Source: Archilochus colubris (taxonomy: Eukaryota > Chordata > Aves > Apodiformes > Trochilidae). From it: DNA of 64,000 bases. Within the stretch, counting starts at the first letter, position 1; each line of letters opens with the position of its first letter. Positions 1-54,465 of this stretch are shown here, piece by piece. Both the position numbers and the translations under genes were made by a program. Below the pieces are notes generated by a model that ran no database searches, was not told where the DNA came from, and saw only the letters and a program-made list of their open reading frames with translations. The DNA lies in contig CM041084.1 of NCBI GenBank assembly GCA_023079485.1, positions 66,931,709 to 66,995,708 on the forward strand, written 5' to 3'.

Positions 1-823
1 TTAATATTATTTTCATACTGAGGGTTAGTAGTAGTAGTAGAACTGCTAGCACACATAAATTATTTCTGGTGTGCAAAGGCAGGCCTTTACAAGTGCCTTC
101 TCTAACAATCTGCTCATGATGCTCTCAAGAAAAATTATTTTCCTCTGAAGATGGCAGTCTGGAACAGAGCTCTCACTCTCAATTAAGCTGGGCTGGTTCA
201 AGTTAGTGAAGTGGAAAGGAAAGGGAAAAAAATTAACAAGATATATTACACTACTTTTACCATATTTACATTCAGTCCGAATTTAACCTGTTTCCAGATG
301 TAAGGTGAAGATTTGATCAATACATCTGGAAAGTTAAATTCAGTGAAGAGTTATTATTTTATTTCCAGTGTATAAATTGTGTCTTTTCAAAAATAACAAC
401 CAAGTTACATCAAGAAAAGGCAATCACAATTTAAAAGTCTTCTCTAGAAAAGTTTAGCTGAAAACAAAGATTGAATGAAGTATGTCAGTCCTACCTTCAA
501 GGTTTAGAAGGAGAATCCAGAGGACTACTGGCAAGTCCACTTCAGTCCCTGGGAAGGCAGTGGTACAACTAACCCTGGACATAGCTTTTAAAATACGTGA
601 AATTGATTAGAAGCCATCAGCATGGATTTCTGAAAGGGAAATCATGTCTGATCCACCTGTTAGCCTTCTATGAAGAGAGTGCTGGCTTGGTGGATGAGAG
701 GAGAGCAGTGGATGTGTTCATCTTGCTGTAGTAAGGCTTTTGACACCGTTTCCCATAATATTTTCCTAAACAAACTGATCAAGTACAGACTAGATAAAGG
801 GACACTGAAGTTGACTGAAAACT

Positions 824-1418
824 TGTAGTGAAATGAGACAACCAGGTGCCACTAATTGCCAGGGAGTGGCATGAGCTTGTGTTAAGTCCACCTGTGCCTG
901 ATTAAGGCAGACCCTAACTGTGCATGAGCAGGACCAGGGGGCCAATAAAAGGTGAGGCCTGAACTCACAAACTCAGCTCACACTGGAACTCACAATCTTG
1001 GTGTGCTTGGCTTTAACTGCTTCTCCCAACACTGCATTACCTTTATTGCTCCACTAGTGCTCACCGCCATCAGGGTGAGGCTTGAGTGGCGCAGCCGGCT
1101 AAGCACGCAGTAACCGACAAACCCGAGCAATGCCGAGGCTGCGGGTTCGAGACTCAGAAGCCTCACCCTGACGGCGATGAGCTCTAGTGGAGCAATAAAG
1201 GCAGTGCAGTGCTGAGAGAAGCACTTAAAGCCAAGCACGCCGAGATTGTGCGTTCTAGCGTGAGCTGAGCTTGTGAGTTCAGGCCTCACCTTTTATTGGC
1301 CCCCTGGTCCTGCTCATGTTCAGTTGGGGCCCGCCCTAATCAGGCACAGGTGGGCTTAACACAAGCTCATGCCCACTGCCTGGTAATTAGTGGCACCTGG
1401 TTGCCTCATTTCACTACA
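824..1418. mobile_element. Palindromic LTR element: LTR, tRNA-like centre, inverted LTR
   Basis: The element begins TGTAGTGAAATGAG and ends with its reverse complement, CTCATTTCACTACA. The arms 824-1086 and 1155-1418 are inverted copies of each other, roughly 90% identical by eye, and many differences are transitions. Each arm resembles the solo LTRs at 6499 and 33747 over the U3 part and has an AATAAA signal (944-949 in the left arm). The LTR-like portion of each arm seems to end at CCACTAG (1051-1057) and its mirror CTAGTGG (1184-1190). Between the arms lies a tRNA-Ile-like sequence. There are no coding regions. The perfect flanking 6-bp duplication argues against two separate insertions or a later local inversion. 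Confidence 0.85.
1084..1157 (+). ncRNA. tRNA-Ile(UAU)-like sequence with Pol III A and B boxes (not a functional tRNA)
   Basis: An A-box-like TGGCGCAGCCGG lies at 1087-1098 and a B box GGTTCGAGACT at 1144-1154. AGCAATGCCGAGG at 1126-1138 matches the region after the anticodon-loop intron of vertebrate tRNA-Ile(UAU), as I recall it. The expected anticodon and 5' intron portion are altered, so it should not decode. Flanking GAGGCTT (1077-1083) and AAGCCTC (1158-1164) can pair as an acceptor-like stem, but they are also part of the palindrome arms. A SINE head derived from tRNA-Ile is the main alternative. Confidence 0.65.
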
Positions 1419-1624
1419 AAAACTGGTTGAACAGTTGTGCTGAAAAGATTGATATTAGATGCAAGAAGTCTGGCCGGACACCAGCAGCATGCCCCAGGGG
1501 TCAATACAGGCTCCAATACTATTTCACATCTCCATTCATGACCTAGACAAAAGGATAGAGTGGATTCTTAGGAAATGCACAACTGATACAAAACTCTGAA
1601 GAGTGATTCATACACCTGGTGAAC

Positions 1625-4600
1625 ATGGTTTCATTCTAACCACAAAAGACTGGAGAGACCACTGACAGAAGCTTCATCTTTTTTTTTTTTTTTTTTGTTA
1701 CTATTTTCACCTCTCCTATTGAAAAAGACATGTATCTTATTCAAAGATGTATCACATAAGCATGTCATCCCCTCTCCTACCCACTGCAGTTCTTTAGATA
1801 GTAATATAAGCATTTCAGTCCTTTAAGAGAGGAAAGGACAGAACACTGACCTTTGGGTCAGGTGCTTCATGCAGCTGCACTGCTTTAACCAACACTAGGA
1901 TTGAGCCCAGTTGTTTAAAAAGGGCACCAAGTAGAAGATTAGCAGCAAGTGAGAACACTTTAGACACAAACATTTGCCACAGCAGAGAGAGAAATTCAGA
2001 ACTGACAGACACTCTTTCAAATTTACCTCAGTTTGAAGGGCTTATTTACCTTAACTGAGGCAAATGGGTTAGTTTCACCACAAAACCTGTTAAAAATGTT
2101 CACTCACAAAGCATTTTGCTGAATACCTACACTTTGACCATACATTTTATTCCTCTCTTAAAACTCTTATTTCTACATTATTAAATAAATGAATGTAGGA
2201 ATGCCTCACTGTTAATAGCTACATACATCAGCCTTGATTCAAGGAAATAACTCAGTATCTATGCCTAACATTAGATACCAGGCCATTTATGTTGCAATTT
2301 AAAATGGAAAGGACACACCTGTCATTAATCACTGTTTAAGGCTCTACACCTTCAATCTTCCAAAAGATGGCCTATTTCATGCCCACTATGCAATTTTCTC
2401 TAGTGGTTAAAGGTAGAATAGAACATTAATTGCAAGAAATATGGCTGGATGAGAAACACACACGGTTCTCAGCTGTCACACTCATTTAGGGTTTTTTGCA
2501 TAAAAATCTAAATGTTCTTTACCAATCCCATTTTGTGATTTGAGTGCTGCCTCATTTCTGAGGTTAGAGGAAAGCCACAGAAAGTGAGTCCAAACCTTTT
2601 AATAACAGTAGTATACTTTGGACTTGAGATGGGGGACTTAAACTACTGAAATAAACAATTTGTACTCTAGTGGTGAAGACATACAGGATCTTCCTCAAGC
2701 AATTCAGACTAATAGAGATGGAATACATATCACTGGCCCAGATACCAACATTAAAAGCCAGATACCTAGGCTGACTCCCCTTTGTAAAGAAGTCTCTCCT
2801 GAAAACATTAAGATCTTTTTTTGTACCAACATTTGGAGGGGAAAAAAACAAAAAAATCACTGCGGTCAAACTAAATTCAATTATGTTGACATGACTCTCC
2901 ATCACCAATGACAAACCACTGTTGTCATCACTTCAGCCTGCATACTGTAGTTTAAAGCTCAATGTTACCGAAATGCAAAGTCAACAGAGTAATTATGTAG
3001 GGAAAACAGTTACTATGAGTTCAAAACCATGGATAAAATATGTCATTCACCAGAGGCAAACTGCCCCAGAGAAAAGTTGGAAGAACACATTAAGAACAAT
3101 GTAAAAGTTTAAACATAGGTAAATACCTATAAATTTCACTCTTGATTACTCAGTAGCTTTATAAGCTACTGTACTGTATCAGGTCTCAGTAGTCTCAAGC
3201 CACTTCTGACAGACCTGTTTACAATAATCTCAGGGTACTGCACTACCACTCACAAAAATAAAGATTATAAAGCCTCACAGTAACAAAACAAAAAAACCAA
3301 TCTGGAGAACTTTACTCTTCACCTCCTCCAATGTATCATCTGTGATTTATCTTTCTCCTTTCTTTATGGCAGATAAAGAAAGCTATTTATTAAAACAGCA
3401 GAGCAAGAACAGATGTAAGGACAGGTAATGAGAAAATAATGCAGCGATCATGAGGATAATGTGAGGGTCAGACATTTGTTTAAATTGTTGTCTGGTGGCA
3501 AGAGGAACTCTTTAATAGCTACATAAAAAATACAGTACAGGGTAGGAAGAATCATACTGCTAATTCAAGGCAGAAAAGAGAGCAGGAACAGGCAAAGAAA
3601 TGAGGGAGATTGGTTAATATTCAGTGTCTCAACAGAAGCAGCTGGGAGCAAGAGCTGCAAAAGGATGTGCTGGCAGTATGAGGAAAAAGACACCCCAGAT
3701 GTCCACAAGACAAAAAAATTTCTATTGTTTTCTAGTAAACATATTCAAGAAATGGGAACCAGGCCTGAAACTCAAACTTTATATTCTTTATGGTACTGCC
3801 ACTAGGCATATCAGTGCTTACAGTCCTCAAGAGCAACATGATACAAGTAACAAAACAAGTAAATCTGAGTTAAATATGATTGAATTTCTCAGGTTTTCCT
3901 GCACCCACGGCCAGCCATAAAATGTACCTAAACATTTAAATTAAGCTCTATGTTCATCTATATTGACCTCTCCTCCAATGTTGCCTATTTCAGTTTTAGG
4001 AACATATTAGAGAATAAAGTTTGCAATCGCAAATGGAAATCTGGGAACAAGTTTCAATAGCAAAGTACCAGCTCTCCAAAATGATAGGGAAGCAAAGCTC
4101 TCTCAGCAGCTGTTTAGGAGTACTGCTTGAGCTCATCTTTGTGGTTCCCACCAGAGCATTTTTACACCCACCAGATAATGGCTTCTCATTGCACAAGAAG
4201 TCCAATAGATTGTAGATTTCAATAGGATCCACCAAGCATGTAATACTGGACTCAAAGAAAAGGTGGGTTGACCAGCACAGCTCTGTGCCAAGTAGATATT
4301 CAATAAGAGTCAACAGAGAAGTCATGGTCTGCACATACAGCACCCTCCAGGGTCTCTCCAGGGAACTTCCCACTCACCTCTCTCCACTCAAGCACACACA
4401 GTAGCAGCTTTGCCCTCCCAGGAGAGGGAAGGAGGAGGAGGAGTTTGCAAGAAGAAAGGAAGAAAACATAAGGGAACAGCCATGAAACAGTGGCCTGGCC
4501 CTTCAGCCAGAGAATTTATTTGGCCTAGTATCAAATATGCTTTCTGTTGACCACACACTTAAATACAGGTGACGCATTTTAAACTTGTATTCAGGAGAAC

Positions 4601-6492
4601 TGTGCATATTCAAAAGACTTTCTAAGAAAACAGAGCAAATTTATCATAATGTAAATACTCAAGTGAGAAGGCTTCTAGATGAATAGTGAGCAAGCAGTGA
4701 AAAGAAGCAACTGCCTTACTTCAGAGATAGATGTACATGATAGGTATGGGTTTGTCCTACACAGTCAACTCTAACACAGTGTAGACAACATCACACTCAA
4801 AATAAAGGTTTTCCAGTTTAGAGGCATATTCCCTATCTCTTCAGAGAATAAATTGTTGACTAAACTTTTTTAAATGTACTTTTATATAGTTAAAGCTTGT
4901 TTTTTCATCACTTGTGTCTGACAAATTAGTGTTCTGCTCTCTTGTGATGAGAACAAACGCAAGATGATGGATTCTCGCTGGTTAATTTTTTTAATATTTC
5001 AACTTAAAAGAGAACTGCTATATTAATAATGAAAAATGGTAAAATAGTCCACTAAAGACACACATAATTTAGTGTTGCATGACTTACTTTATAAGGACAG
5101 ACTGGGGAATATAATATATATATAAAATATATATCCTTGAGCCCAATACTCAGCAAATACTCAAAGACTTTGCATCAGCCCCAATTGGAGATCCCTTGTT
5201 AACTTTAGAATTCAGAACATCCAAAGAACAGAAGCAAAAAAAATCCAGCAGATGGCTCTAAATGAGGAGAACAGAGACAGGTGACTAACTAGTCTAAGAG
5301 GAATAAAAATAAAATGGGAGCAGTGCCACAGTGTTAGCATTTTTGTTGAGCCACCTGGAGAGGTAGCAGGCTTACCAATGAATGCCAAAAATGAGTAGTG
5401 CCCATCTGCTCACCCTAATAAATATCCTTAACCAGAAAAAACCAGAAAATAATCTAATTCCCTCAGCACTACTCACATGCTTTCAGCAGACCTGTTTGTT
5501 TAAAATGTTCATTTGGGTCTTATAGGGCTAAAAACTACTTGCCGGGAATAAAATAATGCTCTAAGAAGACCCATGGAAGTACACAGCAAGTCAGTAGCTC
5601 TAAGAATTCACAACAGAAAGCTCCAACAACTTCCTGTTCAATAAGCAAAAGGTGTGTTGCTATCCCTGCCTTCCACATGTCTTTAGAAAGATACCACTGG
5701 CCACCTGAATGGACTGATGGCAAAACCCTAAACAGGATGGGCAGTTCAGGACTTGAAAAGTTAGTACTCCCCTGGTGATAACAGCAGTGGGAAGTATCTT
5801 CATTCAAAAGGAAGTACAAGAACCAAGGTACAAGCTCAGTTTATCTCCTCTGATGGCTTCCCCGAGTGGCAGCAAGTACCACCCTTTTGCTGACTATAAA
5901 CGTGGACTGAAAAAGGAGGTCAGAGGTGGCAGAGAGTGGAATAAGGAATGCTCAGGTCCCTCATTAAATACCACTACACAAAAACCTGGGATGGAAGAGA
6001 AACTAAAGCAAACGGGTTTGTTGGCCTTCCATGAGTTTGAAAACAAAATGCCTCCTTCTTAGCACTAATCCTTATCATATCCAAACACTGTTTTTATATG
6101 AATGAGGGTCTAAGAGTCTGGAGCAGAAATTCAAACTAAGACTGAGACATTTTCAAGCTGGTCTGATTCAGAGCTGTATTTATTTTTCATAGATGACAAA
6201 TGCAGCTGAAAAAAACCCCACCTGTTCTGTTTAACATCATCAATTCTACTTACCCAATAAAAGAGATTCAATCACCACTGTCTGGATTCACACAAAGTAA
6301 TCCAGAACAGGCCAGGCCTTTAGGTGTTCACAACCATCTTACAAAGTTATCAGAGTATTTTAGTTTCCTTTATACTAGGACTCACGCATAAATGTTTCAT
6401 GCTAGATTTTGATTTTCATATGGCAAAAATGTGACAGAATTAACCTTTAAATATGCCTACATAAACATGTATGAAGAGAAAAAAGAACTATT
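1625..6492. other. Non-coding AT-rich stretch, no recognised gene
   Basis: This holds a T18 run at 1679-1696, short A/T-rich runs near 5110-5140, and open frames that look like chance (for example 125 codons on the minus strand at 3996-4373, with no family I recognise). No CR1 or LTR signature was seen. Confidence 0.6.
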
Positions 6493-6712
6493 GAGAAATG
6501 TAGAGAAACAAGATAAACCAGGTGCCTCGAGTTGCCAAAGAGTGGGTGTGAGTCCACCTGTGCCTGATTAGGACAGGCCCCCTATTACCAGGTGGCCAAT
6601 AAAGGTGGGACACACACCCACAGAGGAGAGCTCACTCTTGCAAGAGGCACTGGAGAAGCCAGCAGCTCGTTGAGCCTCAGGAGCAAGAAAGGCTCTCCCC
6701 GCTACAGAGAAA
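6493..6712 (+). mobile_element. Solo LTR of the TGTAG family (6499-6706) with GAGAAA target-site duplication
   Basis: The LTR runs from TGTAGAG at 6499 to GCTACA ending at 6706 (208 bp). GAGAAA occurs at 6493-6498 and 6707-6712 as a perfect 6-bp target-site duplication. The 5' part shares CCAGGTGCC, CCACCTGTGCCTGATTAG and GGCCAATAAA (AATAAA at 6598-6603) with the other two family members. No internal retroviral sequence or second LTR follows, so it is a solo LTR, most simply left by LTR-LTR recombination. Confidence 0.85.
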
Positions 6713-9939: not shown

Positions 9940-10995
9940 ATAAGGTTATCTAAGTCCTACAAAACCTCCCTGTTCAGCCAGACTGGTCATCTTCCCTGCC
10001 AGCTTGCCTTTCAGCACACAGGGACAGTGCTCCTGTGCACTCAAGACTTGTTTCTTGAAGTACACCCATCCCTCCTGGACCCCTTTGTTTTCAAGGGCTG
10101 TTTCCCAGGGCACACTCTGAATCTGTTTTCTGAATAGACCCTGCCCTCCAGAAGTCCAGTGTAGAGGTTTTATTGTCCCTCCTTGCATCCCTGAGTACTG
10201 AAAACTATCATTTCGTGGGCATTGTGCCCCAGACAGCCTCCGACCACCACATCTCCCATCAGCCCCTCTCTGTTTGTGAGCAGGTCTAGTGGGGACCTAT
10301 CCCTGGTAGGCTCATTTACCAGCTGGAGCAGGAAATTATCCTCTATACGCTCTAGGAATCTCCTAGACTGCCTGGAATTCCCAGCAGGAATTCCCAGCAG
10401 ACATCTGGCAGGTTAAAGCCACCCATGAGAACAACGTCTGATGGTTTTGAGACATCTGCCAGCTGTTTGTAGAATAATTCATCACTCATCATCCTGGCTG
10501 GGTGATCTGTATCAGACTCCCATGAGCATAACAGCCTTGTTGGCCTTCCCCCTGATTCTGATCCACTGGCACTCAGCTTTATTGTTACTGACCTCAAGTT
10601 CTACAGAGTCAAGAGACTCTCTGACATACAGAGCCACCCCTCCACTTCTCCCTTGTCTGTCCCTTCTGAAGAGCCTGTAGCCATCCATGGCAGCACTCCA
10701 GTCATCCCACCACGTTTCCGTGATGGTGACAACATCACAGCTTTCCTGCTGCACCATGGTTTCGAGCTCCTCCTGTTTGTTTCCCATACTGTGTGCTTTG
10801 CTGTACATGCACTTCAGCTGGGCTGCTGATTTTACTCTTAACTCGGGCTTTTCACCTCTACGCTCACCTCTGGAGAGCCCGGTTTCAATCCCTTCCCCCT
10901 TCAAACCTAGTTTAAAGCCCTCCTGCTCAGCCCCACCAACTCACAGGCTACAGTCCTCCTGCCCCTGCTAGAGAGATGCAGCCCATCTGAGCTGA
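9940..10995 (-). mobile_element. CR1 LINE 5' half: end of ORF1 (esterase tail), ORF2 endonuclease and linker
   Basis: Read on the minus strand, 10990-10907 encodes SDGLHLSSRGRR, the D..H end motif of the SGNH-type esterase domain known in CR1 ORF1. Next comes the ORF2 endonuclease: ITETWWDD, then GYRLFRRDRQGRSGGVALYV, in the frame 10904-10512. The motif normally read GDFN is here GGFN near 10420-10430, so a catalytic aspartate is lost. A 13-bp tandem duplication (GGAATTCCCAGCA) near 10375-10400 shifts the frame. A further frame at 10188-9946 carries the linker (VPWETALENKGVQEGW). No reverse transcriptase or 3' end follows, which is odd because CR1 copies normally lose their 5' part. The 5' side abuts the 12-mer array. 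Confidence 0.88.
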
Positions 10996-12955
10996 GAACA
11001 CGGGAAACACACGGAAAAAACACACACGCAAAAACACACGCAACAAGACACGTAACAAAACACAAGCGACAAAACACGTGACAAAAAACACGTGACAAAA
11101 CACACGTGACAAAACACATGACAAAGCACATGACAAAACGTGACAAAACACGTGGGACAAAACACGTGACAAAAAACACGTGACAAAACACGTGACAAAA
11201 CACATGACAAAACACATGACAAAACACGGGACAAAACACGGGACAAAACACGGGACAAAACACGGGACAAAACATGGGACAAAAACACGCAAAAAAACAC
11301 ACGGAAAAAACCGCAACAAAAAAACACGCAACGAGACACGTGACAAAACACACTTGAAAAAACACACTCGACAAAACACACTCGACAAAACACGCGACAA
11401 AACACATGGGACAAAAAACACGTGATAAAACACACGTGACAAAACACGCAAAAAAACACACGGAAAAACCACACACGCAAAAAACACGCAACAAGACACG
11501 GGAAAAAAAATCCCGGGTCAAAACACACGGGACAAAAAACGCGGAACAAAAAACACATGATAAAACACGTGACAAAAAACACGTGAAAAAACACGCAAAA
11601 AACCCACACGTTTTTCCGTGTGTTTTTTCGCATGGTTTTTTTTCCGTGTTGTTTTTTACGTATGTTTTTTTACGTGTTTTTTCACATGTATGTTTTTTGC
11701 GTGTGTTTTTACGTGTGGTTTAGTGCGTGTTTTTTCACATGTGTTTTTTCACGTTTTTTACGTGTGTTTTTTTCCGTGTGTTTTTTCACATGTGTTTTTT
11801 CACGTATTTTTTTTTCTGTGTGGTTTTTAACGTGTGGTTTTTTCCTGTGTTTTTTTACATGTGTTTTTTCATGCGTGTTTTTTCATGTGTGTTTTTTCAT
11901 GTTTTTTGCGTGTGTTTTTAACGTGGTTTTTTGCGTGTGGTTTACTGCGAGTGGTTTTTTGCGACAAAATACACACGTGACAAAACACGTGTCAAAACAC
12001 ACGCGGCAAAACACGCAAAAAAACACGCCAAAAAACACACGGAAAAGACACACAAAAAACATGCAACAAGACAAAAGCGACAAAACACACGCAACAAAAG
12101 CACACAAAAAAAGCACACGGAAAAAAACACATGCAAAAAACATGGGACAAAACACGCAACAAAAAACACGCGACAAAACACGCAAAAAAACACATGACAA
12201 AAAAACACGCCACAAAAAACACATGGAAAAAACACGGGACAAAACAAACGTCGAAAACCACACGACAAAAACCACGCGACAAAATACCACGCGACAAAAA
12301 AACATGTGACAAAAAACGCGTGACAAAACACACGCAACAAAACACAGGAAAAACACACGCAACAAAACACACGCAACAAAAAGCAAAAAAACACATGGAA
12401 AAAACACACGCAAAAACCACGCAACAAGACACGGGAAAAAAAACACGACAAAAACCACACGGGACAAAACACGTAAAAAAACACAAAAAAACACAAGCTA
12501 AAAACACGCAACAAAACACGCGACAAAACACACGGGACAAAACATGACAAAAACCATGTGGCAAAATACATGTGACAAAACACACGACAAAAGCCCTGGG
12601 AAAAAACACACGTGACAAAACACACGCAACAAAACAGGCAACAAGACACGGGAAAAAAAACACAGGACAAAACACACGGGAAAAAACACACGGGAAAAAA
12701 CACGTGCGACAAAACACACGCAAAAAAACACGCGACAAAACACACAAAAACCCACGCAAAAACACGCAAAAAAACGCGCAAAAAAACACACGCAAAAAAA
12801 CACACGGGACAAAACACACGCAAAAAACGCGCAAGAAAACACAACAAAACGCAACAAAAACACACACAAAAACACACGCAAAAAAAGCACACGGAAAAAA
12901 ACACACGCAACAAAACACGCGACAGAACACACGTGACAAAACAAAAAAAACCGAT
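10996..12955. repeat. About 2-kb degenerate 12-mer array (ACAAAACACGTG-like) with an internal inverted block
   Basis: The unit is about 11-14 bp, typically ACAAAACACGTG with variants ending CACGGG, CACATG or CACACGCA. Segments 10996-11610 and 11963-12955 read with the A-rich strand on +, while 11611-11962 reads in the opposite sense as T6-rich units (TTTTTTCACGTGTG type). By eye there are at least 15 copies of the palindromic E-box CACGTG, nearly all in the two outer segments. Many overlapping open frames arise only because the unit lacks stops in several frames; they translate to Cys/Phe/Val-rich or Lys/Thr/His-rich repeats and are not called as genes. Confidence 0.9.
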
Positions 12956-13584: not shown

Positions 13585-14796
13585 ATCTGACCAACCTGAT
13601 CTTCTTTTATGATCAGGTGACCCGCCTGGTGGATGAGGGGAAGGCTGTGGATGTGGTCTACCTGGACTTCAGCAAAGCGTTTGACACCGTCTTCCACAGC
13701 ATCCTCCTGAAAAAGCTGTCAGCCCGCAGCTTGGACAGGAGCACCCTGTGCTGGGTTAAGAACTGGCTGTAGGGCCGGGCCCAGAGAGTGGTGCTGAACG
13801 GGGCTGCATCCAGTTGGCGGCCAGTCACTAGTGGTGTCCCCCAGGGATCAGTGTTGGGCCCAGTTCTGTTCAGTATCTTTATTGATGATCTAGATGAGGG
13901 GATTGAGTCCATCATCAGCAAATTCGCAGACGACACTAAACTGGGGGGGGAGTGTGGATCAGCTGGAAAGCACGAGGGCTCTGCAGAGGGACCTGGACAG
14001 ACTGGAGAGTTGGGCTGATTCCAGCGGGATGAGGTTCAACACAGCCAAGTGCCGGGTCCTGCACTTTGGCCACAACAACCCCATGCAGCACTACAGGCTG
14101 GGGACAGAGTGGCTGTGAGCAGCCAGGCAGAAAGGCACCTGGGAGTCTGGATTGACAGGGAGCTGAACATGAGCCAGCAGTGTGCCCAGGTGGCCAAGAA
14201 GGCCAATGGCATCCTGGCCTGTATCCGGAACAGCGTCGCCAGCAGGTCCAAGGAAGTGATTCTGCCCCTGTACTCAGCACTGGTGAGGCCACACCTCAAG
14301 TACTGTGTCCAGTTCTGGGCCCCTCAGTTCAGGAAGGATATCGAGATCCTGGAGCAGGTCCAAAGGAGGGCAACCAGGCTGGTGAAGGGACTCCAGCACA
14401 GACCCCATGAGGAGAGGCTGAGAGAGCTGGGGGTGTTCAGCCTGGAGAAGAGGAGGCTCAGGGGAGACCTCATCACTCTCTACAACTACCTGAAAGGAGG
14501 GTGTAACTGGGTGGGGGTTGGGCTCTTTTCCCAGGCAACTCTCAACAAGACAAGAGGTCATGGTCTCGAGTTGTGCCAGGGGAAGTTTAGGTTGGATGTT
14601 AGAAGGAATTTCTTTACGGAGAGAGTGATCCGGCATTGGAATGGGCTGCCCAGGGAAGTAGTGGATTCTCCATCCCTGGAGATATTTAAAAAGAGACTGG
14701 ATGTGGCACTCAGTGCCATGGTCTGGTAACTGCAGCGGTAGTGGATCAAGGGTTGGACTTGAGGTCCCTTCCAACCCAGCCAATTCTATGATTCTA
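13585..14796 (+). mobile_element. CR1 LINE 3' half: reverse transcriptase core to 3' end
   Basis: It opens with LTNLIFFYDQVTRLVDEGKA and VVYLDFSKAFDTV (13585-13695), then [20 protein letters not shown] (13828-13888) and the catalytic FADDTKL near 13925, then the C-terminal part in one frame at 14049-14729 ([18 protein letters not shown] near 14265-14320). A stop interrupts NWL*GRAQ near 13770, and the G-run near 13943-13950 shifts the frame. The 3' UTR ends with the TTCTATGATTCTATGAT repeat at about 14780-14797. It is the best-preserved CR1 in the window, but dead. Confidence 0.93.
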
Positions 14797-17700
14797 TGAT
14801 CTGCTCCAGAAAGAAGCTGGAGCCCCAGGTAACATGATACAGATACACAAGAGCCCAATGGTTTAGCAACTGGAATTCTTCTCATCTCTTTTGTTCACAG
14901 TATGAACACTGTTGTTTAAAATCTCAGTTTTAAGTCCTCCACCACCAAATTAATTACAGTGAGGGTCCATCTCCTGCTTTCTAACTTCTCTTGATGGTTA
15001 CTGCCCCATGAGGGTCAAAACTGCCCACAGGGAAGTCAAGGCCCAGTAACAGCAACAGATGGACACAGAGCTGGGTTTAGGGATGACAGGATTTAACGCG
15101 TACTCTGTATAACAACAATCCCAGCACCAGCCTCCTTTAGAAGTGGATACAAACGTTATTTCTGCAATTCCTAGGATTAAAGAATATTAGAATAACTTAG
15201 TTTCAAAGAGACCACTTCATCAAAGAGATGATCTAGGCAAATACCCTGTTCAAAGCAGGTTGCATAAGACTCACCCAGCTGGGTTTGTATGTCTCCAAGA
15301 ACAGTTTCCACAACCTCTCTGAGCAATCCAGTTATAGATAATTTGAATTTAATGCTCTTGCCCACGGGGTTCTCATACAGAGAGACCCACAGGGTAGATA
15401 CATTTACTTGCTAACACACAGAACCAAACCTATAGGTGAGCAGTTTCCTGAACATTTTCAAAAAGGGAGAATGGACAGAGGCTGTACGTGCAAAACTTTG
15501 GAACAAATCAGAGCTGCACAACTATGTTGATAAGTCACACAAAGAGAAATCTCCCATTTACAAATCCATTATTTGGGTCTTAGAAACCCTGTTCACTATC
15601 TACCTTGTCTATACCTGACCTGAAGTGCATAATGTACTATAAATGCCTGCCTTTCTTTTCTTTATACACTAGTTACCAACATAATGTACTGATGGACTTT
15701 AAGCAGCTCTATAAACATGACAGAATTCTTCTGAAGAGCTGATTATCCACAGCTCTGAGAAAAAAAAATATGCTGGGAGAATACACTGTGGTTTATACAG
15801 AGAAGCAAACAACCAAAATATATTAAAACAAAAGATTAACTGATTTCTTGGACTTCTGTTTGTGAAATTATTTTTCTTAGTTTTGAATTTGTATACGAAA
15901 CAGAAAATTTCTATTCATAATTCAATTGTTGCAAGAGGAGTTAAAACCACAACTGCTTTAATTTAAAGGTAATTCTTTCAACATTTCATACATTCCCAAC
16001 AGAAATGTTCATTTGAAGAGAAAGTTGATATGTTTATGACAAGCTGTTGTGTACTTTTCCAGATGATGGTAACATGCTGACAGCTTAAAAAGTAGATGTG
16101 CTACTCTAAGGTTCATTGTCTAAGTAATGACTCTCCCTCTGCAACAATTTAACAGCTTACATTTACAGTTGATTATAATTTCTATGAAATTCCAATATTT
16201 GCTAATGATCTGCAAGACTGGGAAAAAATAGCATCTTCTGTCTCAAACCTTCTCCCATAGACATGCTACTCTTCTATAACAGTCTAAAAGACAACACATA
16301 CACTTTTTTTCATAACCTATCAATTCTCAGTTATTTCAAAATAGTTCAGACAATGTTATTCTCTTTTCTACTTCTGTAAGATGTGTCAGCCAATGGAACA
16401 TAATTCATCCTTGGGGAAAACAGTTTAGAGTAAGATTTTTTTTGCAAGCAGCAGAGCCACCAAACTTTATTTCCTCTAGGTCTGGAAGCAAAGACAAATT
16501 CATTCTGCTATTTTCCCCTTAGCTGAGGCATTAATAGGGTATACATCTTATTTATTAGTCCCTTTATTCTTACACATCACTCTAAGTTGCTGTCTCTGGT
16601 GATCTGGACACCCCTTGTGAAATCTGACTGAAAATAAGAGAAAAAATAAGCAGATGTACAAATACCATCTCACAGACCTCAATTCCATAGGAATCTAGGC
16701 TTAAAACTGGAATTTTTAGGAAAAATATTAGACTCAACCCAACAGTGCCTTAAAAAAGACAGCAATACCTTAAGTGAGAGTTGCACTCTGGTTCTCAAAA
16801 GTATATAACTATTCTCATTGGTAAAGGTCATTGCTACAGAACACACAGGTAGTCTGCTTGTCTAGGAGCAGATTACACTTAGATTTATCCATTTCACTTC
16901 TGCCATATCATTCCTTAAAGGATACAGAGATACTCTTGTAATACATAACCCCCAAAATCATTGTAGATGATACATAATCATACATAGTATGGCCTCAGCA
17001 CGTGTCATGATAATTTAAGAAGGTAATGTCTGCCTCACAAGTATTATGTGTTCTACACTATGTTGCATCACTACAGAAACTTTGGTCTTGTAAAGCTGCA
17101 GAGAAAATAACACCTAAAACCTCAGCATTATGTTCATATATTAATGTTGCTTCAGTAACTCTTAAATGCCCCTATAAAAACAAAAACCAAAAATGTTCCT
17201 TTCAGTGTTTTTTTCAATGCCTAAAACATTCCATCTACACAGAGACACAAGCTTAAGTGAAAAATGGTCTCTAGACAGTCTGAGTAAAACTTGTGCCTGC
17301 AGTCCTGCAGAGTTGGTCACCTTACATCCTTCCTACTTTAAAACAGATTTCAAGCCTTTCTTGTTGAAAAACACATTTTCTTTGATCAAATCCATTACAT
17401 CCATGTTCAGAAAGCTGTGTATGTATAGCAAAGAGGTTTCCTCCTAGCACCTCCGTCTAGTTCATGTTAAAGAATCACATTAAAAACAACAGAAATGGAA
17501 CAGTGTTACTACAACCTTTATTACCACACCTCCAGTCCCCTTTGCTATAGCTATAGCAAAACTCAGATGCCCTGGACAGCTGAGCTGTGCAACTGGGAAC
17601 CTGGTGCAGTCAGAGCAGCAGGGCTTTATTTTCATGCAGTGCAAAAACATCCCTATGGAGCCCTGAAACCCTAGAACAGGAACGTGAAATGATCTCCCAG

Positions 17701-28440: not shown

Positions 28441-29051
28441 GGATACTAAGAGAGAAATCGCTCACGTAGGGTTGCAACACATCAGGCCCTGGCACAGGGA
28501 CACGGGGAAACATTCACTTGAAACTTACAGCGCGATTTGGATGCGATGCCCAAACGCCCACCACCTGTTGCTCCTGTCGGGGCCCTACACCCACCCCACT
28601 TTGCCAGCAGCCACCCCTCCATACAACACACCGACAAAACAGCCCCTGGTGCGCACAAACACCCTACTGTCACCCAACGCTGGTTTTATTTTACCCCTAT
28701 CGCTTAGGCCTTCCCCTACACCCCCCACCCCCGGTTCGGGCCGCTCAGAGCCGCACTGACGAAGCCCGAGCGGAGCCCCCGCGGGTCGAGGCAGCCTGAG
28801 GCTTGACCCATAACCCGGGGGCGCAGCCCAACAGAGAGCGGCCCCGCGGATCTACCCCACCTGCTACGCCGGAAGGGGCAAACCCAGGAGGACTGCTCGG
28901 GCCTGGCATCTGCCCCGAGCCCTCACGGCTGCCCCAGCCGGGGGAGTGCCTTCCCCCCGCGCCGCTCAGGCCACGGCCCCGCCCCGGCCCTTGCGTTGGG
29001 CCCCGGCCGAGCCGCAGCCGCTGCCCGACCGCTCGCCGCTCCTCCACTCAC

Positions 29052-29200
29052 CGCCAGGCCGTACGCTTCTGCTTCTGCCGCTACCGCGGCTGCCCCCGCC
29101 CCTGCCTGCCCGCCGCGGAGGCGCGCAGAGAAGCCCGGCGCAGGCGGCTGAAGGCGGCTCCGGGGGCCGGCGCGGCCCCGGGCGCTGCGGGCGGGGAAAG
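29052..29200 (-). other. FARS2: Candidate FARS2 non-coding exon 1
   Basis: On the minus strand the sequence reads GGCCTGGCG then GTGAGTGG, so the exon would end at 29052 with the intron starting at 29051. The donor matches consensus. The exon start is unknown and is set only approximately inside the CpG island. FARS2 charges mitochondrial tRNA-Phe in the matrix. The assignment rests on mammalian synteny, because no FARS2 coding sequence is visible here. A second, weaker possible donor (CTAC then GTGAGC on the minus strand) lies near 28460. Confidence 0.4.
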
Positions 29201-29238
29201 GGGCCTCGCCGCGGGAGGACCCGCCTGTTGTGGGTAAC

Positions 29239-29324
29239 ATGGCAGCGTCCAGCCGGGCCCAGGTGCTGCGGCTTTACCGGGCCCTGTTACGGGAAAGCCA
29301 GCGTTTCGACGGCTACAATTACAG
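29239..29324 (+). CDS. LYRM4: LYRM4 (ISD11) coding exon 1
   Basis: Encodes residues 1-28 plus two bases of codon 29, starting [20 protein letters not shown]. The family-defining LYR tripeptide is at residues 12-14. LYRM4/ISD11 is a small mitochondrial matrix protein that binds and stabilises the cysteine desulfurase NFS1 together with acyl carrier protein, and so is needed for iron-sulfur cluster assembly on ISCU. The start has a strong context (A at -3, G at +4) and matches the known vertebrate N-terminus. The exon ends CAG before the donor GTGAGC. Residues such as R11 and D24 differ from the human protein as I recall it; no disabling change is seen. Confidence 0.96.
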
Positions 29325-32300
29325 GTGAGCTCCCGGCCCGGGCGGGGATGGGCTTCGGGGCAGGCAGCTGCCCCTGACGCCGCTTATTTCCGCGAAAGAA
29401 TAGGGGTAACGATGGGGAAACGGGGAATGCCGGCGTTTTTTATGGGGGCTGGGCCGGGTTCGCGTGAGGAGCTCGTCTTCGGGGGGTGCGGGAAAGCTGT
29501 GACCTCCGGGGACCCCACGGAGGAGCGGCCGCCGGCCCAGGCCGAGCCCTGCCCTGCCCTGAGGGAGGCCTTTCCGGGCCTGGGCCCGGGCACGATTCGA
29601 GGGGGCCAGAGGAGGGTGATCCCCCGATCCAAGGGCTTGGCCACAGGCTGCCCCAAAGCCTAAGGTGATGAACCCTCCCTGTCACAGGAGGAAGGGACAG
29701 AACGGAGATCGTCCCATCCTGGAAAAGCTCGTGTCTAGTCTGGATGCCGCCCGTCTGGTAGGGGAGAGCCGGGGCCGCGCTGCAGCCTTGGATGTGCGGG
29801 AGAAGGGCGGCTCTGCTGCTACTCATGGGCACCATGTGCTGTACCTGAGGTCAGGGGGTGAGGGAGCAGGATTCACCTGTCCAGCCAGACGGGATGCCAT
29901 GCTGCACGGCCGACTGCCTTCCCTGGGTGTTGGTGAAAGATGTGCACAGGTATTTTGGCGAAGAGTATGCCTGCTTGTGTGCCAGAGGCATAGCCTTGGC
30001 CTCCTTTAGCTACACACTGGTTTCACAGGGGGGCTTCTTGCTGACACAGGCAAAATAATATTGCCCACTGGCCATTTGTTGGCTTTACCAGGCAGTTGGA
30101 TCATGGAGAGGGACATGTGGGCTGTCTTTGCTGTGAACCATCTCCAGCCTGGCAAGAGTTGGAAAGGGAAGCCTTTGAACTTGCATAACATGGCAAGGTC
30201 GGCGCTTTTCCAGGCATAAGTATTCTCTCGTGTGAGGGAGTGCCTTGGAAAGAAAGCCTGTGGAGGTAGAAGCCTTCAACTCTTGCTGGTGGAGCACAGG
30301 GGACTTGGGGAATTGTTGGCATCTCCTGTGTACACTATACTCGAAACCCAGCCCACCTCTCCAGGTATTCCAGAAATGAACTGTGTACTTGACAGGTCTT
30401 GGCTCTATGGAAATTTTTGCATGTGTCTCAAAGGTAAGGCTGTCAGGTAACAGTAGGTGCACCAGTGAGATTTTTGCATAACGTAATGTAAAACTTGTAG
30501 TTCTGGGTTTTTTAGTGTTTTTATACTTGTGAATTTTAAAGGATATAAAATACTGAGAAATGTGTTTACCAAGGTTATCAGTCATTTATGCCACCATATC
30601 AGGGTGCATGTTTTCCGTTTCCTGAAAGATCTTAAGTTTTAATGGCCCTGTCCTGAGATACTATGAAGTCTGCGACTGTGTAAAATCTTGTGGTATATAC
30701 ACATTTGTGAGCACTAGAAACAGAAATAATAAACAGCTGTTACATGTAGAGATCTGCTGGGACCAGAACAACTATTCTGTCTCTACAGTTTTATGTAGCT
30801 AAAATGGACACCCTGTTTGCTTCTTCTGTGCCAAGATAAGCAGTCCTGCCATGTCCTCAGGGCTGCCGTAATGTGATATGGTTATACCCTGGAGTAAACC
30901 TAATGACTTCGTAAAGATCCAACTTGTAGCAAAGTAGAAAGTATTCATTTTATTGATTCATGACTTCAGTTAGAGAATTTCAGAATATTTTATTATTGCA
31001 CAGAGTGCATATTTGTATGTGTACATCTGAAGTGTATCATCAGCTGGTTGGTGTCTCCTTATTTGCTTGGTATCCTTTTTCCCTTAAACGTGTACATATA
31101 GATTTGATGGAAAATTCAGGGGTTTTTGTGCCTTTCCCAGTACATACATTCTGTGTGTCACTTCTATATGTCAAATTTGGTAGTGCCAAATTGTCTTCCA
31201 CCTCCCAAAAGAACTTTTAGTTTTGTAACTGTAAAGAGTAACATTTATGCCTTACAGTAGAATAACAGCAGACAGGAGCATCTCCAGGTCCTGTAGTAAA
31301 TGTTGTGGAATGTTTGGGGGTTGTGTGCCAGGTTTTAGCAGCAGAGAGTAGACTTCAAGTAATTCAGTAGACTGTAAGTAATTTGATTTCTGCCTTGTTA
31401 CCTATGCACACAGTCTGAGTAAAGAAAGTTATTTGTATTGGAGGAAAATCAATATGCAAATGGAGATGCTAGGTATTGAGTAAAAAAGGTGTTCTGTAAT
31501 GAGTGTTCTCTTCTGCTTGGTTGGCACAAATCAGATCCTCTGGTGGTTTATAATGTTCAGGATTACAGTCTCAAATAAATTGATTCGAGGGATAATTTCT
31601 AAGGATTTGTGTTCTTAATAATGATTTTATGGTGTGTCTGTTTTGTTACTGTAAACAAAAGAATTTGTAAACTTTTGAAAGCTGTTAAAACACATCTGGT
31701 TGCAAATAAGAATAATGTCAACTTTTTTTCTAACATAACTGAAGCTCAGTGGTCAAAACATACGGGAATCTAGTGGTAGAAGGTTTTCTCTTGAAGGGTA
31801 GTGCAGGACTGGAGCAGGTCACCTGGAGAGATTTCACATCTCAGTTTCTGAAGATTTTCATGGCAGGATTAACCAAACTGCACCATGGCTGACCTGACGT
31901 TGTTGCATGTAGGCCTATTTCAACTGGAAGGTTGGCTAGAATAAGCTCCAGAGATTCTAGCTAACCAACATCACTGTGCTTTCCAGGACCCTGCCTTCCT
32001 TGGCCTACACAGATACCTACAGTGGCAGATACTCTATGACGTGCTTCTGGATCATCTTCTTTCTAATTGTTTAGTTTCTTTCAGTTATAGGTAAACTCAG
32101 AAACTTTGGGGTTCTCTGTTAGGAATTTTCTGCAAATAAATTATTTGGTTTTTTAAAGCTATTTCTTGATTTACATTCATTCCAGTTAACTGGTGGATGT
32201 TGTGTTTTTATATATAGATATATTTTTCTTGTCTTTGTGAATGACACTTAAATGGATTTTGATTTTTTTATTGGAATGTGCAATATATTTGATTAATGCA

Positions 32301-33740: not shown

Positions 33741-34077
33741 CTGCAGTGTAGCAAGACAAACCTCTTTTAGGGTACGGCACTTTCAAGGTCCAACCAGGTG
33801 TTCCAGGAGGGACTCACGAACAGTGCTCTAAGCCTATAGCCCTCAGGGTTGACTAGCCTGGATCAGTGCTATTGCTCTGAGAGCAACTGACCTCTCTGCT
33901 GGCTTGCTCAGGATTGAGCTGAGCCTGTGCTTCAAGCTTCACCTTTTATTGCCCCCCTAATCCTGCTCATGCGCAGTGGGGGCCTGCCCTAATCAGGCAC
34001 AGGTGGGCTGAACACAAGCTCATGCCCACTCCCTGGCAATTAGTGGCACCTGGTTGCCTCATTTCACTACACTGCAG
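33741..34077 (-). mobile_element. Solo LTR of the TGTAG family (33747-34071) with CTGCAG target-site duplication
   Basis: The 325-bp LTR lies between perfect 6-bp repeats CTGCAG at 33741-33746 and 34072-34077. Read on the minus strand it starts TGTAGTGAAATGAGGCAACC and ends TTGCTACA. It shares its U3-like half with the palindromic element at 824-1418, including the stretch around CATGAGCTTGTG and the AATAAA signal (TTTATT on +, 33945-33950). Its distal part differs from the palindrome arms, so it is another subfamily. No internal viral sequence remains. Confidence 0.9.
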
Positions 34078-40759: not shown

Positions 40760-41880
40760 GGAGACAGAGGATAAATCATGCCTGACCAACATCATTGACT
40801 GGATTTGTGAATGAGGGCAGAGCAGTGGATGTTGTTTACTTCTGTTTTAGGGAGGTTTTCAGTGCTGGTTCCCACAATGTTCTTGTATCCAAGTTAGCTT
40901 GCTATAGTCTGGATAGACGTACAACCATGGGCCTTTGAGAGTGGTTGGATGCTAGGGTTTAGATGTTAATGGATCTTGGTAGTTAATAATGGTAGTTAAT
41001 GGATCTTCAGAGGGTTATCCTGGGACTCATTCTGTTTCACATCTTCATAAATGACCCAGAGGAAGTTACAGTGCAGTAAAGTTTGCAGATGATGCCACAT
41101 TAGGGAGCCAACATGCTCAAGGACTACTGTCCAGAGGGCCTTCAGAAGCCTGAAGGGAATCCCTGAAGGAAAAGGCCAACAGTAACCATATGAAATTTAG
41201 TAAGGACAAGTGCAGTGTACTACACCTGGGAGGGGGATGCCCTGGACACACATCAAGCTGAAGACTGACTGGCCAGGAATCAGCTCTGATGAAAGGGGGT
41301 TAGGGGTCCCAGCAGCCAGCCACATGCTCTGGAAACAAGGAAGGCCAAGAGCTTCCTGAGATGTATCAACAGTTGCTCAGGCAGCAGACTGAGAGGGGTG
41401 ATTGCCCCCCTTCTAGCTGGTGCTTGTTAGACTGGAGTACTACATGCAGTATTGCCCCAACCCCCCATGCAGAAAGGACATGGATAGCCTAAAGCAAGAT
41501 ATGCAGAAACCACCGAAGTTGTTGGGCAGTGAAGCAGCTTCCTTGTGAAAAGAGCCCGAGGGAACTGGGCTGGGTCATCCTGGATGAGTGAAAACATTGA
41601 GAGAACATAATAGAAGCCATTACATCAAGGTATCCAGGGTTGCTTGGAGGGAGGGCAAGAGACAGCAGAAGTCAAATGAAGGAAGAGGTTTTCTGAGTGG
41701 CTTTAAGGAAAATATTTTTCCCCACAAGGACAGCCAAGCAATTCAGCATTATTCCCCAAGAGGTGGTCCAGTCACCATCCTGGTTTCGAGACCTGACTGG
41801 ACAAAGCCATGAGTAGCCTGATCCAATCCCATCACTGGCCCTCCTCCCTGAAGGAGCTGAGACTGGAGACCTCCTGAGCT
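40760..41880 (+). mobile_element. Old decayed CR1 LINE (reverse transcriptase region to 3' part)
   Basis: Fragments in CR1 order are readable: CCTGACCAACATC (LTNI) near 40780, GAGGGCAGAGCAGTGGATGT (RAVDV) near 40815, ATCTTCATAAATGACC (IFINDP) near 41042, AAGTTTGCAGATGATGCCAC (KFADDAT) near 41080, and a 3' part near 41590-41830 with AAGAGGTGGTCCAGTCACC. Many stops, frameshifts and deletions are present, so it is one of the oldest copies here. Confidence 0.8.
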
Positions 41881-51754: not shown

Positions 51755-54465
51755 GCAGGGTTACAATGTCACCAGCATCACTGAAACATGGTGAGATGAC
51801 TCCACTGAAGTGTGGGAATGGTTGGGTACAAGCTCTTTAGGAAGGACAGGCAGAGAAGAGGAATTATTTGTCAACCTCCAGCAGTGCCCAGCTGGAGTCT
51901 GTTGAGCTTCTTGTGGGGATGAAGACTGAGAGCTCATGGGTCAGGGTTAAAGGACTGATGTTGTCATAGTGAGGCTGCTACAGGCGAACCAAGGAAAACC
52001 AAGTGGAATGATGTCTTCTGTAGAGAGATTGGAGCAGCTTTGCATTCATAAGCACTGGTCACAGGAAATTTCAGCCACTCCAGTCTCTGTTGGAGGGAGA
52101 ACACAGCAATGAACCAGCAGTGCAGGAAGTTCCTGGGATGCATCAATGATAATTTCTTTCTCCAAGTGGTAGAGAACCCAGTGAGAAAAGATGCTATGCT
52201 GGGCCTTGTTCTCATTAATTAGGGTGGGCTGGTGACACTGAAGAGCAGCCTTGGCTGCAGCGTCCATGCAGTGATGTAACTTAGGCTCTTTAGGGGAACA
52301 AGGAGAATACAAAGGAAGTTCACTCCCCTGGACTTCAGGAGAGCAGACTTTGAGCTCCTCAGAGATCTGCTGGTGGGGTACCATGAGGTAAAGCTCTGGA
52401 GGGGAGAGGAGCCCAAGAGGGCTGGTCAGTATTCAGGAATCACCTCCTCGAAGCCCAGGAGCAGTGCATCGCAAGAAAGAGGAAAGCAGACATGAATAGC
52501 AGGAGGCCTGCATGGATGAGCAAATAGCTTCTGGACACACTTGGATGTAAAAACAAAGTCTACAGAAGGTGGGAGCAAGGAAAGGCAACCTGTGAGGAGT
52601 ACAAATAAGTTGTCCTAACAGCCAGGGATCAGGTGAGGAAAGCTGGAGCCCAGATAGAATTAAATCTAGACAGGACATCAAGGGTAGCAAGAAAAGCTTC
52701 TGTAGGTATTCAGTGATAAAAGGAAGACTAGAGTCAATGTAAGCCATCTCCAGAAGGAAACAGGAGAGATAGTCATGCAGCCTGTTGAGAAGCCTGAGGT
52801 ACTCAATGACTTCTGTTACCTCAGTCTTCATCTTCAGAGGCTCTGACCACACCACCCAAGTCACAGAAGGCAAGGGTAGGGACTGTGAGAAGGAAGATCA
52901 GCCCACTGTAGTGGAAGAGCAAGTTCAAGACCATCTAAAGAACCTGAAACTGTGCAAGAACATGGGACCTAACGAGATCTATCCTTGGCTCCTGAGGGAG
53001 CTGGCAGATGAAGTTGCAATTCACTGTGCATCATATTTGAAAAGTCAGGGTAATCTGGTAAAGTTCCCACTGACTGGAAATAGGGAAAAAGAGCCCCCGT
53101 TTTTAAAAAGGGAAAAGAAGAAGACCCAGGGAACTGCAGGGCAGTCAGTCTCTTCTCTGTGCCCAGCAAGATCATGAAGCAGATCCTCCTGAAGGTTCTG
53201 CTAAGGCACATAGAAAATGAGGAGATGGTTGGTGGCAATCAGCATAGCTCCACCAAAGACAAATAGTGCCTGACAAATCTGGTCACCTTTTATGATTGGG
53301 TCCCAGCGTCAGTGGACTAGGGGAGAGCAGCTGACATCATCTGCCTGGACTTGTGCAAAGTGTTTGACTCTGTCGTGCTTGACATTCTGCTAACTGAACT
53401 GGAACAATATCAATTTGATGGATGGACCACTTGGTGGGTAAGAAATTGCCTGGATGGTCGCACTAAAAAAGTTGTGGTCAAATGGATGTCCAAATGGAGA
53501 CCACTGATGAGCGGTATTTCTTAAGGTTTGGTACTGGGGCTTGTACTGTTTAATATGTTTGTTGATTGCGTGGACAGTGTAATTCAGTGCGCCCTCAGCA
53601 AGTTCTCTGATGGCAGCAAGCTGTGTGGTCCAATCAACACACTGGAAGGAAGAGATGCCATCCAGAGGGACCTTGCCAGGCTTGAGTGGTGGGCCCATGC
53701 CAACCTCATGAACTTCAGCAAGGCCAAGTGCAAGGTCCTGCACCTGGGTCAGGGCAATAGCAAGTACAAATAGAGGGTGGGTGGGCAACTGATTGATAGC
53801 AGCCCTGAGGAGAAGGATGTGGGATGGTGGTTGGTGAGGAGCTCAACACAAGCTGAAAATGCAGCCCAAAAAGCCAACTTTATCCTGAGCTGCATCAAAA
53901 CAACAGTGGCCAGCAGGTCAAGAGAAGTGATTCTTTCGCTCTGCTGCACTCTCTTGAGACCTCACCTGGAGAACTGTGTCCAGCTCTGAAGCCCCTAACT
54001 CAGGAACGACGTGGAGCTGTTGGAGCAAGTCCAGAGGAGGGCCACAAAGAAGCTCAGATGGCTGGAGAACCTCTCCTGTGAAGACAGGCTGAGAGAATTG
54101 TTATGTTCAGCCTGGAGAAGAAAAGGCTCCATGGAGACCTTATAGCAGCTTTCCAGCACTCGAAGGGTCCTGCAGGAAAGCTGTGGAGGAACTTTTTAGC
54201 ACTTTTTGTCCTGTAGTGATAGGACAAAAGGTAATGGCTTTAAACTGGAACAGGGTTGACTTAGGTTAGACATTAGGAATAAACTCTTTTGTGTGAGGGT
54301 GGTGAAACACTGGAGAAGTTGTGCAGAGTTGTGGATGTCCCCTCCCTGCAAGTGTTCAAGGCCAGATTAGACAGGACTGTGAGCAATCTGGTCTGGTGTC
54401 CCTGCCCATGCAGGAAGGATTGATGGTCTTTAAGGTCATTTACAACACAAATCACTTTATGATTT
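51755..54465 (+). mobile_element. Nearly full-length CR1 ORF2 remnant (endonuclease to 3' end)
   Basis: An endonuclease motif is readable near 51764-51790 (VTSITETW). The linker and RT start appear at 52900-52990 (VQDHLKNLKLCKNMGPNEI), then QSVSSLCP near 53145, DLCKVFDSV near 53350, FVDCVDS and SKFSDGSKL near 53560-53630 (the catalytic FADD is degraded to FSDG), then EGRDAIQRDLARLEWWA near 53650 and KAKCKVLHLGQGN near 53720. The 3' part continues to about 54465 with the LTLGQ/LEQVQ-type end. Stops and frameshifts are many. At 2.7 kb it is the longest CR1 here, and LYRM4 intron 2 carries it in sense orientation. Confidence 0.9.

Follow-up and report, generated by a model that had tools for sequence, protein, structure and literature searches.

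A near-palindromic LTR-like insertion with Pol III box motifs in its core in the genome of the hummingbird Archilochus colubris

Can the DNA of an LTR-type unit already be palindromic when it is integrated? The question is raised by a 595-bp near-palindrome at positions 824-1418 of the window analysed here, a stretch of 64,000 nucleotides (64 kb) from contig CM041084.1 of Archilochus colubris. The element has a retrovirus-like appearance. Its left arm of 260 bp (824-1083, + strand), in which an outer U3-like part (approximately 824-980) is distinguished from an inner part (approximately 981-1083), is separated by a core of 74 nt (1084-1157, +) from a right arm of 261 bp (1158-1418, - strand) that is the left arm's inverted copy. 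Aligned over 260 columns, the two arms show 24 mismatches and a single gap (K2P 0.100); the mismatches, among which 19 of the 24 are transitions, are scattered over the whole length. The element starts with TGTAG at 824 and finishes with CTACA at 1418, its outer ends being two copies of one U3 end (TGTAG...), and it is flanked by identical copies of the hexamer AAAACT at 818-823 and 1419-1424. A sequence-only reading of this DNA had reported the TGTAG...CTACA ends, inverted arms of about 260 bp and the perfect 6-bp AAAACT duplication, and all of these were found. As an observation it thus holds largely and is partly confirmed, the tRNA-like core that it proposed being the unsupported part.

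Several candidate signals lie within the arms. A TATA-like box, AATAAAAGG, is present in the left arm (944-952, +) and again in the right arm (1289-1297, -). From 1081 to 1420 the + strand has a single TTTT (1291-1294), which is part of the inverted TATA-like box and may serve as a Pol III terminator; an AATAAA at 1194-1199 (+) is a possible poly(A) signal for a transcript starting from the left TATA-like box.

Inverted pairs whose members are 40 nt or longer and lie within 3 kb of each other number 16 in the window. The element accounts for two of them, with segments of 216 and 47 nt, the former being the longest of the 16. Thirteen others lie inside a tandem array at 11-13 kb, and the remaining one joins CR1-like ends, two stretches that we take to be CR1 3' ends. 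No second palindromic copy was found within the 64-kb window; nor did we see a PBS, a PPT or a direct-repeat partner of the element, or a second direct copy of it in the 64 kb. The tandem array (10998-12943) is itself large and degenerate, made of AAACACACGTGACA-like units with periods of 12-88 and carrying long spurious ORFs; its middle, 11611-11943, is on the opposite strand. It sits between a minus-strand frame at 10515-10940 (Pfam Exo_endo_phos, E 1.3e-06) and a plus-strand CR1-like stretch at 13586-14798. A short inverted repeat at 278-342, TTTCCAGATGTA...TACATCTGGAAA, could be a small palindromic repeat of another kind; it matches Rfam mir-3688 on both strands, with E values of 0.05 and 0.39 that are far below gathering.

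The sequence-only reading had further proposed that the palindrome was integrated as one unit. When the element and one hexamer were removed, and the joined flanks were aligned to the rest of the window, matches running across the junction were obtained at three sites: 13586-13942, 40799-41073 and 53211-53474. The best of these paralogous empty sites, at 13586-13942, matches at 62.5% of 360 columns (225/368 in the junction alignment) and carries the hexamer once, reading AGAACT/GGCTG against AAAACT/GGTTG at the element (the slash marks the junction). The second is weak, with 59.9% of 287 columns (171/287 in the junction alignment), as is the third, with 59.3% of 268 columns (131/224) and gaps at the junction. 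The best relative, at 13.6 kb, has 14 extra bases, missing at 1425-1430, that start 5 bases to the right of the junction; since the other two sites have 0 and 6 extra bases near the junction, this is most likely an unrelated indel. That the flanks align across the junction once the element is taken out points to one integrase-type insertion. Retroviral-type ends, a single duplication and an insertion that is precise by comparison with paralogous empty sites all bear out the proposal. The element interrupts what looks like a CR1 copy. This label is our own assumption, drawn from a reverse-transcriptase frame and from tail octamers: tandem ATTCTATG octamers are found at 14783-14798, downstream of the frame at 14019-14726. 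Pfam gave no family for the frames at 664-828 and 14019-14726, so the label is a presumed one, helped by the tail octamers. An octamer motif is expected at the tail of amniote CR1 elements (PMC5729268).

Two related solo LTRs had been said to lie nearby, and they are real. One, at 33747-34071 (- strand, 325 bp, not palindromic), is flanked by the duplication CTGCAG; the other, a distant relative at 6499-6706 (+), is flanked by GAGAAA and matches at 73.9% over 92 columns. Both show the TGTAG...CTACA end type and perfect 6-bp target-site duplications (TSDs). The 325-bp copy resembles the two arms at 88.6 and 90.5% over 158 columns; the outer part of the left arm aligns to its stretch 33915-34071 (88.6%, 158 columns), and the match spans the conserved AATAAAAGG and about 28 bases beyond. 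Homology is confined to the outer 157 bp or so of each arm, that is, to U3 and the TATA-like box. Eight comparisons of the inner 100 bp or so of the arms and of the core with R-U5 of both solo LTRs gave nothing significant, 138 to 594 of 1000 shuffles reaching an equal score (169-250/1000 for the inner arms alone, with the family represented by two LTRs). CTACA, the 3' end of the LTR, is absent from both inner arms, and homology over the whole length was found with neither of the two family LTRs compared. The outer-only homology and the missing inner CTACA indicate that the arms are U3-bearing pieces and not demonstrably whole LTRs; the earlier description of "two inverted LTRs" therefore goes too far. 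With its TG...CA ends and 6-bp TSD, the element otherwise has the marks of an ERVK-type solo LTR. A 6-bp TSD denotes ERVK by convention, and on TSD length and anatomy the element would probably belong to this class.

The core had been described as tRNA-Ile-like, a claim that found no support. ARAGORN recognised no tRNA in the window, and Rfam gave no tRNA match at E<=1 in 1-6000 or at E<=10 in 1040-1200, and nothing at the gathering score in the entire window. The core was also aligned to 22 tRNA sequences, with 1000 shuffled cores as control. Its best match was to iMet, with a score of 32, a value that 144 of the 1000 shuffled cores reach; Ile-AAT scored 28. Nor is there an unusual fold at 1083-1158 (z -0.29; 67 of 200 shuffles fold equally well). 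The core as a tRNA was accordingly rejected on all three counts, ARAGORN, Rfam and the alignment to 22 tRNAs. Two further candidates were set aside. Rfam matches to MIR1437 in 1040-1200 (E 2.9e-06 and 6.3e-06; 42 and 40 bits, the gathering score being 168) are read as reflecting the long hairpin, and a 100-aa frame over the core and inner arms is read as a chance ORF, none of its 16 word-sharing candidates reaching E<=1.

What the core does contain is a pair of Pol III box motifs. An A-box motif, TGGCGCAGCCGG, at 1087-1098 (+) agrees with the consensus at 12/12 positions, and a B-box motif, GGTTCGAGACT, at 1144-1154 (+) at 10/11, or at 9/11 by the stricter GGTTCGANTCC. The starts of the boxes are 57 bases apart, and this is the sole A+B box pair in the window on either strand (at most 2 mismatches, 30-79 bases apart). 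An equally good pair (35-64 bases apart) occurred in 0/3000 order-1 Markov sequences of 595 bp and in 0/3000 of 90 bp, statistics to be read in the knowledge that the consensus was set after the sequence had been inspected. From the motifs given for Helenus elements, the core holds four of the five letters of TRGCY, and YGG and GGTTC are present (Kojima 2024, PMC10886601).

The core also stands out in its CpG content. The CpG o/e is 1.08 in the core (8 CpG), 0.06 in the left arm (1), 0.36 in the right arm (7) and 0.23 in the window; the solo LTRs have 0.13 and 0.19. Fourteen CpG fall in the 182 bp of 1084-1265, the core and right inner arm, against one in the left arm. Other 74-bp stretches with 8 CpG (10-base steps) occur only in the array, at 12.2-13.1 kb, and in a CpG-dense region at 28.7-29.5 kb. 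Among GC-matched stretches, 4/83 reach 8 CpG, all in the CpG-dense region; outside both regions the count is 0/41, with a mean of 1.1. At each of the five CpG-type transitions that distinguish the arms, it is the right arm that retains CG (sign test approximately 0.06). At one of these sites the left arm and the solo LTR are alike, and the right-arm CG may there be a gain. This retention of CpG would be consistent with an unmethylated Pol III unit that stretches from the core as far as the TTTT at 1291, and equally with a younger core. The CpG-dense stretch at 28700-29470 may, on its own account, be a CpG island or a gene start.

How old is the palindrome? Differences were counted three ways at 155 U3 sites among the left arm, the right arm and one solo LTR, an unrooted comparison with no outgroup. 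Private differences number 6 in the left arm, 4 in the right and 9 in the solo LTR, all three sequences differing at 1 site. Arm differs from arm at 11/155, and the arms differ from the solo LTR at 16/155 and 14/155. The arm-to-arm difference being so close to that between the arms and the solo LTR, the palindrome seems to be nearly as old as the split from the family copy, which speaks against a recent duplication and against false assembly. Any arm-to-arm conversion could only make the palindrome look younger. The sequence-only reading had proposed just this comparison of arm-to-arm with copy-to-copy divergence, and its outcome, 11 versus 16 and 14 of 155, makes the palindrome look old.

We lean, on balance, towards the view that the element is a non-autonomous ERVK-type LTR unit with internal Pol III boxes, whose mobile DNA was already palindromic at integration. 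One could envision that, in a parental element, a growing DNA strand had copied U3, then the inner region and the core with its boxes, before a strand switch led back to the U3 end. Such a fold-back template switch might have occurred while the element was being reverse transcribed, or else in a genomic copy of the parent. An ERV integrase acting in trans would then have accepted two U3 ends, as the TGTAG...CTACA termini of the element, which are the end pair of ordinary LTRs nearby, lead us to suppose. Two transcripts could then be made from the inserted copy: a Pol III transcript, driven by the internal boxes, that would start near 1080 and stop at the TTTT at 1291, and a Pol II transcript that would be driven by the left TATA-like box and reach as far as the AATAAA at 1194.

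The alternative that survives best, a possible one but clearly less probable, is that the insertion at AAAACT was at first an ordinary one, of a solo LTR or a provirus, and that, soon afterwards, a replication template switch made the palindrome as a one-off event. The TGTAG/CTACA ends would be those of the original LTR, whose U5 side was replaced by inverted U3 and inner region, with the core as the loop. The 5-bp inverted repeats TGTAG...CTACA could have guided such a switch, which would account for a right end that coincides exactly with that of an LTR; the AAAACT duplication would be that of the original LTR, and the outer TSD would look identical. The presence of no further palindromic copy within the window is likewise in keeping with a single event. 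Against this, arms that are 11/155 apart, as compared with 16 and 14 to the family copy, require the switch to have followed closely upon integration, and nothing in this scenario leads one to expect Pol III box motifs in the core. It is on account of the age result, and of both termini being exact U3 ends, that we rank a palindrome formed before or at integration above one formed soon after.

Long inverted arms, small size and a non-coding core would also suit a MITE, a DNA-transposon-like element bounded by long terminal inverted repeats, in which case no LTR derivative would be at hand. We consider this improbable. The non-palindromic element of 325 bp to which the outer 157 bp can be aligned has TG...CA ends, a 6-bp TSD and a TATA-like box, the anatomy of an LTR. 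The relatives at 6499 and 33747 are both absent from the long inverted pairs, so that shared terminal inverted repeats were not found. By virtue of this anatomy the 325-bp relative would be a putative LTR.

More doubtful still is the origin put forward in the sequence-only reading, in which strong-stop DNA with the tRNA primer still attached served as template for an LTR / tRNA / inverted LTR structure that was then integrated. The core, at 74 nt, has about the size of a tRNA and includes A-box and B-box motifs. However, this model needs the LTR 3' end CTACA and a primer-binding site at each junction. CTACA is absent. When the junctions were compared with the 3' ends of 22 tRNAs, the highest primer-site matches were 12/18 and 11/18, values that 50/200 and 186/200 shuffles equal. 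The core, moreover, is not recognised as a tRNA, its full-length tRNA similarity being not significant (144/1000 shuffles), and what the arms share with their relative is the U3 part only. Minus-strand strong-stop DNA holds R and U5 only; the presence of U3 would therefore need a completed first strand transfer. The model thus fails at the arm-core junctions and in the nature of the core, which leaves it very unlikely and the interpretation of the earlier reading, taken as a whole, partly supported. An assembly or library artefact, to which long hairpins are prone in the form of false inverted duplications, is just as hard to credit, given that the arms differ at 24/260 columns, mostly by transitions (19/24) and in a scattered manner, while a false palindrome would be near-identical, and that a TSD flanking both outer ends would be unexpected.

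If we return to a unit that was palindromic at integration, it is tempting to speculate that it stands for a whole non-autonomous ERV family, in the bird or a near relative, in which the LTR itself is palindromic and a Pol III promoter central. We put this forward tentatively, as a doubtful extension. In such a family the integrase would use two identical U3 ends, the U5 end being dispensable, and the transcript would be a long hairpin; the core has stayed CpG-rich, in contrast to a left arm from which CpG has almost disappeared. Should the element prove recurrent, it would indicate that DNA which bears an identical U3 end on both sides and lacks a U5 end can be mobilised by an ERV integrase, that a vertebrate ERV-type unit can hold a Pol III promoter, and that such a unit is a built-in source of long double-stranded RNA. 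As a one-off, it would offer a clean example of an LTR turning palindromic.

Known relatives were sought in two ways. Among the literature matches listed, seen as titles and starts of abstracts with subscription journals and preprints under-represented, none reports an avian LTR that is palindromic and has a Pol III core, a negative that is no proof that such a structure is undescribed. Seven sequence-pattern scans of viral, bacterial and archaeal collections gave no relative of the element: two patterns run against the viral collection returned 9 and 4 loci, the best matches to the element spanning at most 22 columns, at the pattern itself, and the longest match outside the pattern spanning 26 columns (E 2.4); the other five scans were empty. 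Given the nature of these collections, the misses say little about the host.

The closest parallel is with Helenus (TRIMp3), a non-autonomous element whose LTR contains Pol III A and B boxes like those of a tRNA gene (Kojima 2024, PMC10886601). As far as the available text of that paper goes, the boxes are conserved, most copies are predicted to be without a working tRNA, the elements have two direct LTRs with PBS and PPT, TSDs in animals measure 4 bp, a palindrome is not mentioned, and the section on animal results names no bird (PMC10886601). The element described here resembles Helenus, as portrayed there, in being an LTR-type unit with A and B boxes and no recognised tRNA, its Pol III activity being predicted from motifs. 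It differs in that it is a single palindromic unit, that its TSD is 6 bp long and its U3 contains a TATA-like box, and that no direct LTR pair with PBS and PPT is present in the 64 kb, although it may be a solo derivative. Cassandra TRIMs of land plants carry 5S rRNA in direct LTRs (PMC10886601). They share with our element a Pol III promoter within an LTR-type unit, as far as that account of them extends, and are unlike it in that the promoter is 5S-derived and the LTRs are direct. TguSINE1, a passerine repeat with a tRNA-Ile head and a CR1 tail (PMC5729268), is likewise short and has an A/B-box promoter. In contrast with TguSINE1, as the available part of that source presents it, the element is without the tail octamer ATTCTRTG, which is absent within 818-1424, and its core is not significantly tRNA-Ile-like. 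DIRS elements have inverted LTRs, are not known to generate TSDs and use a tyrosine recombinase; inverted terminal repeats are common to both, whereas our element has a perfect 6-bp TSD. In this respect it is like the solo LTRs of avian ERVs, with which it shares 6-bp TSDs, TGTAG...CTACA ends and the TATA-like AATAAAAGG; some 157 bp of U3 are common to it and the copy at 33747-34071. What sets it apart from ordinary members of that group is a U5 side that is the inverted U3 side, and a core that bears the boxes.
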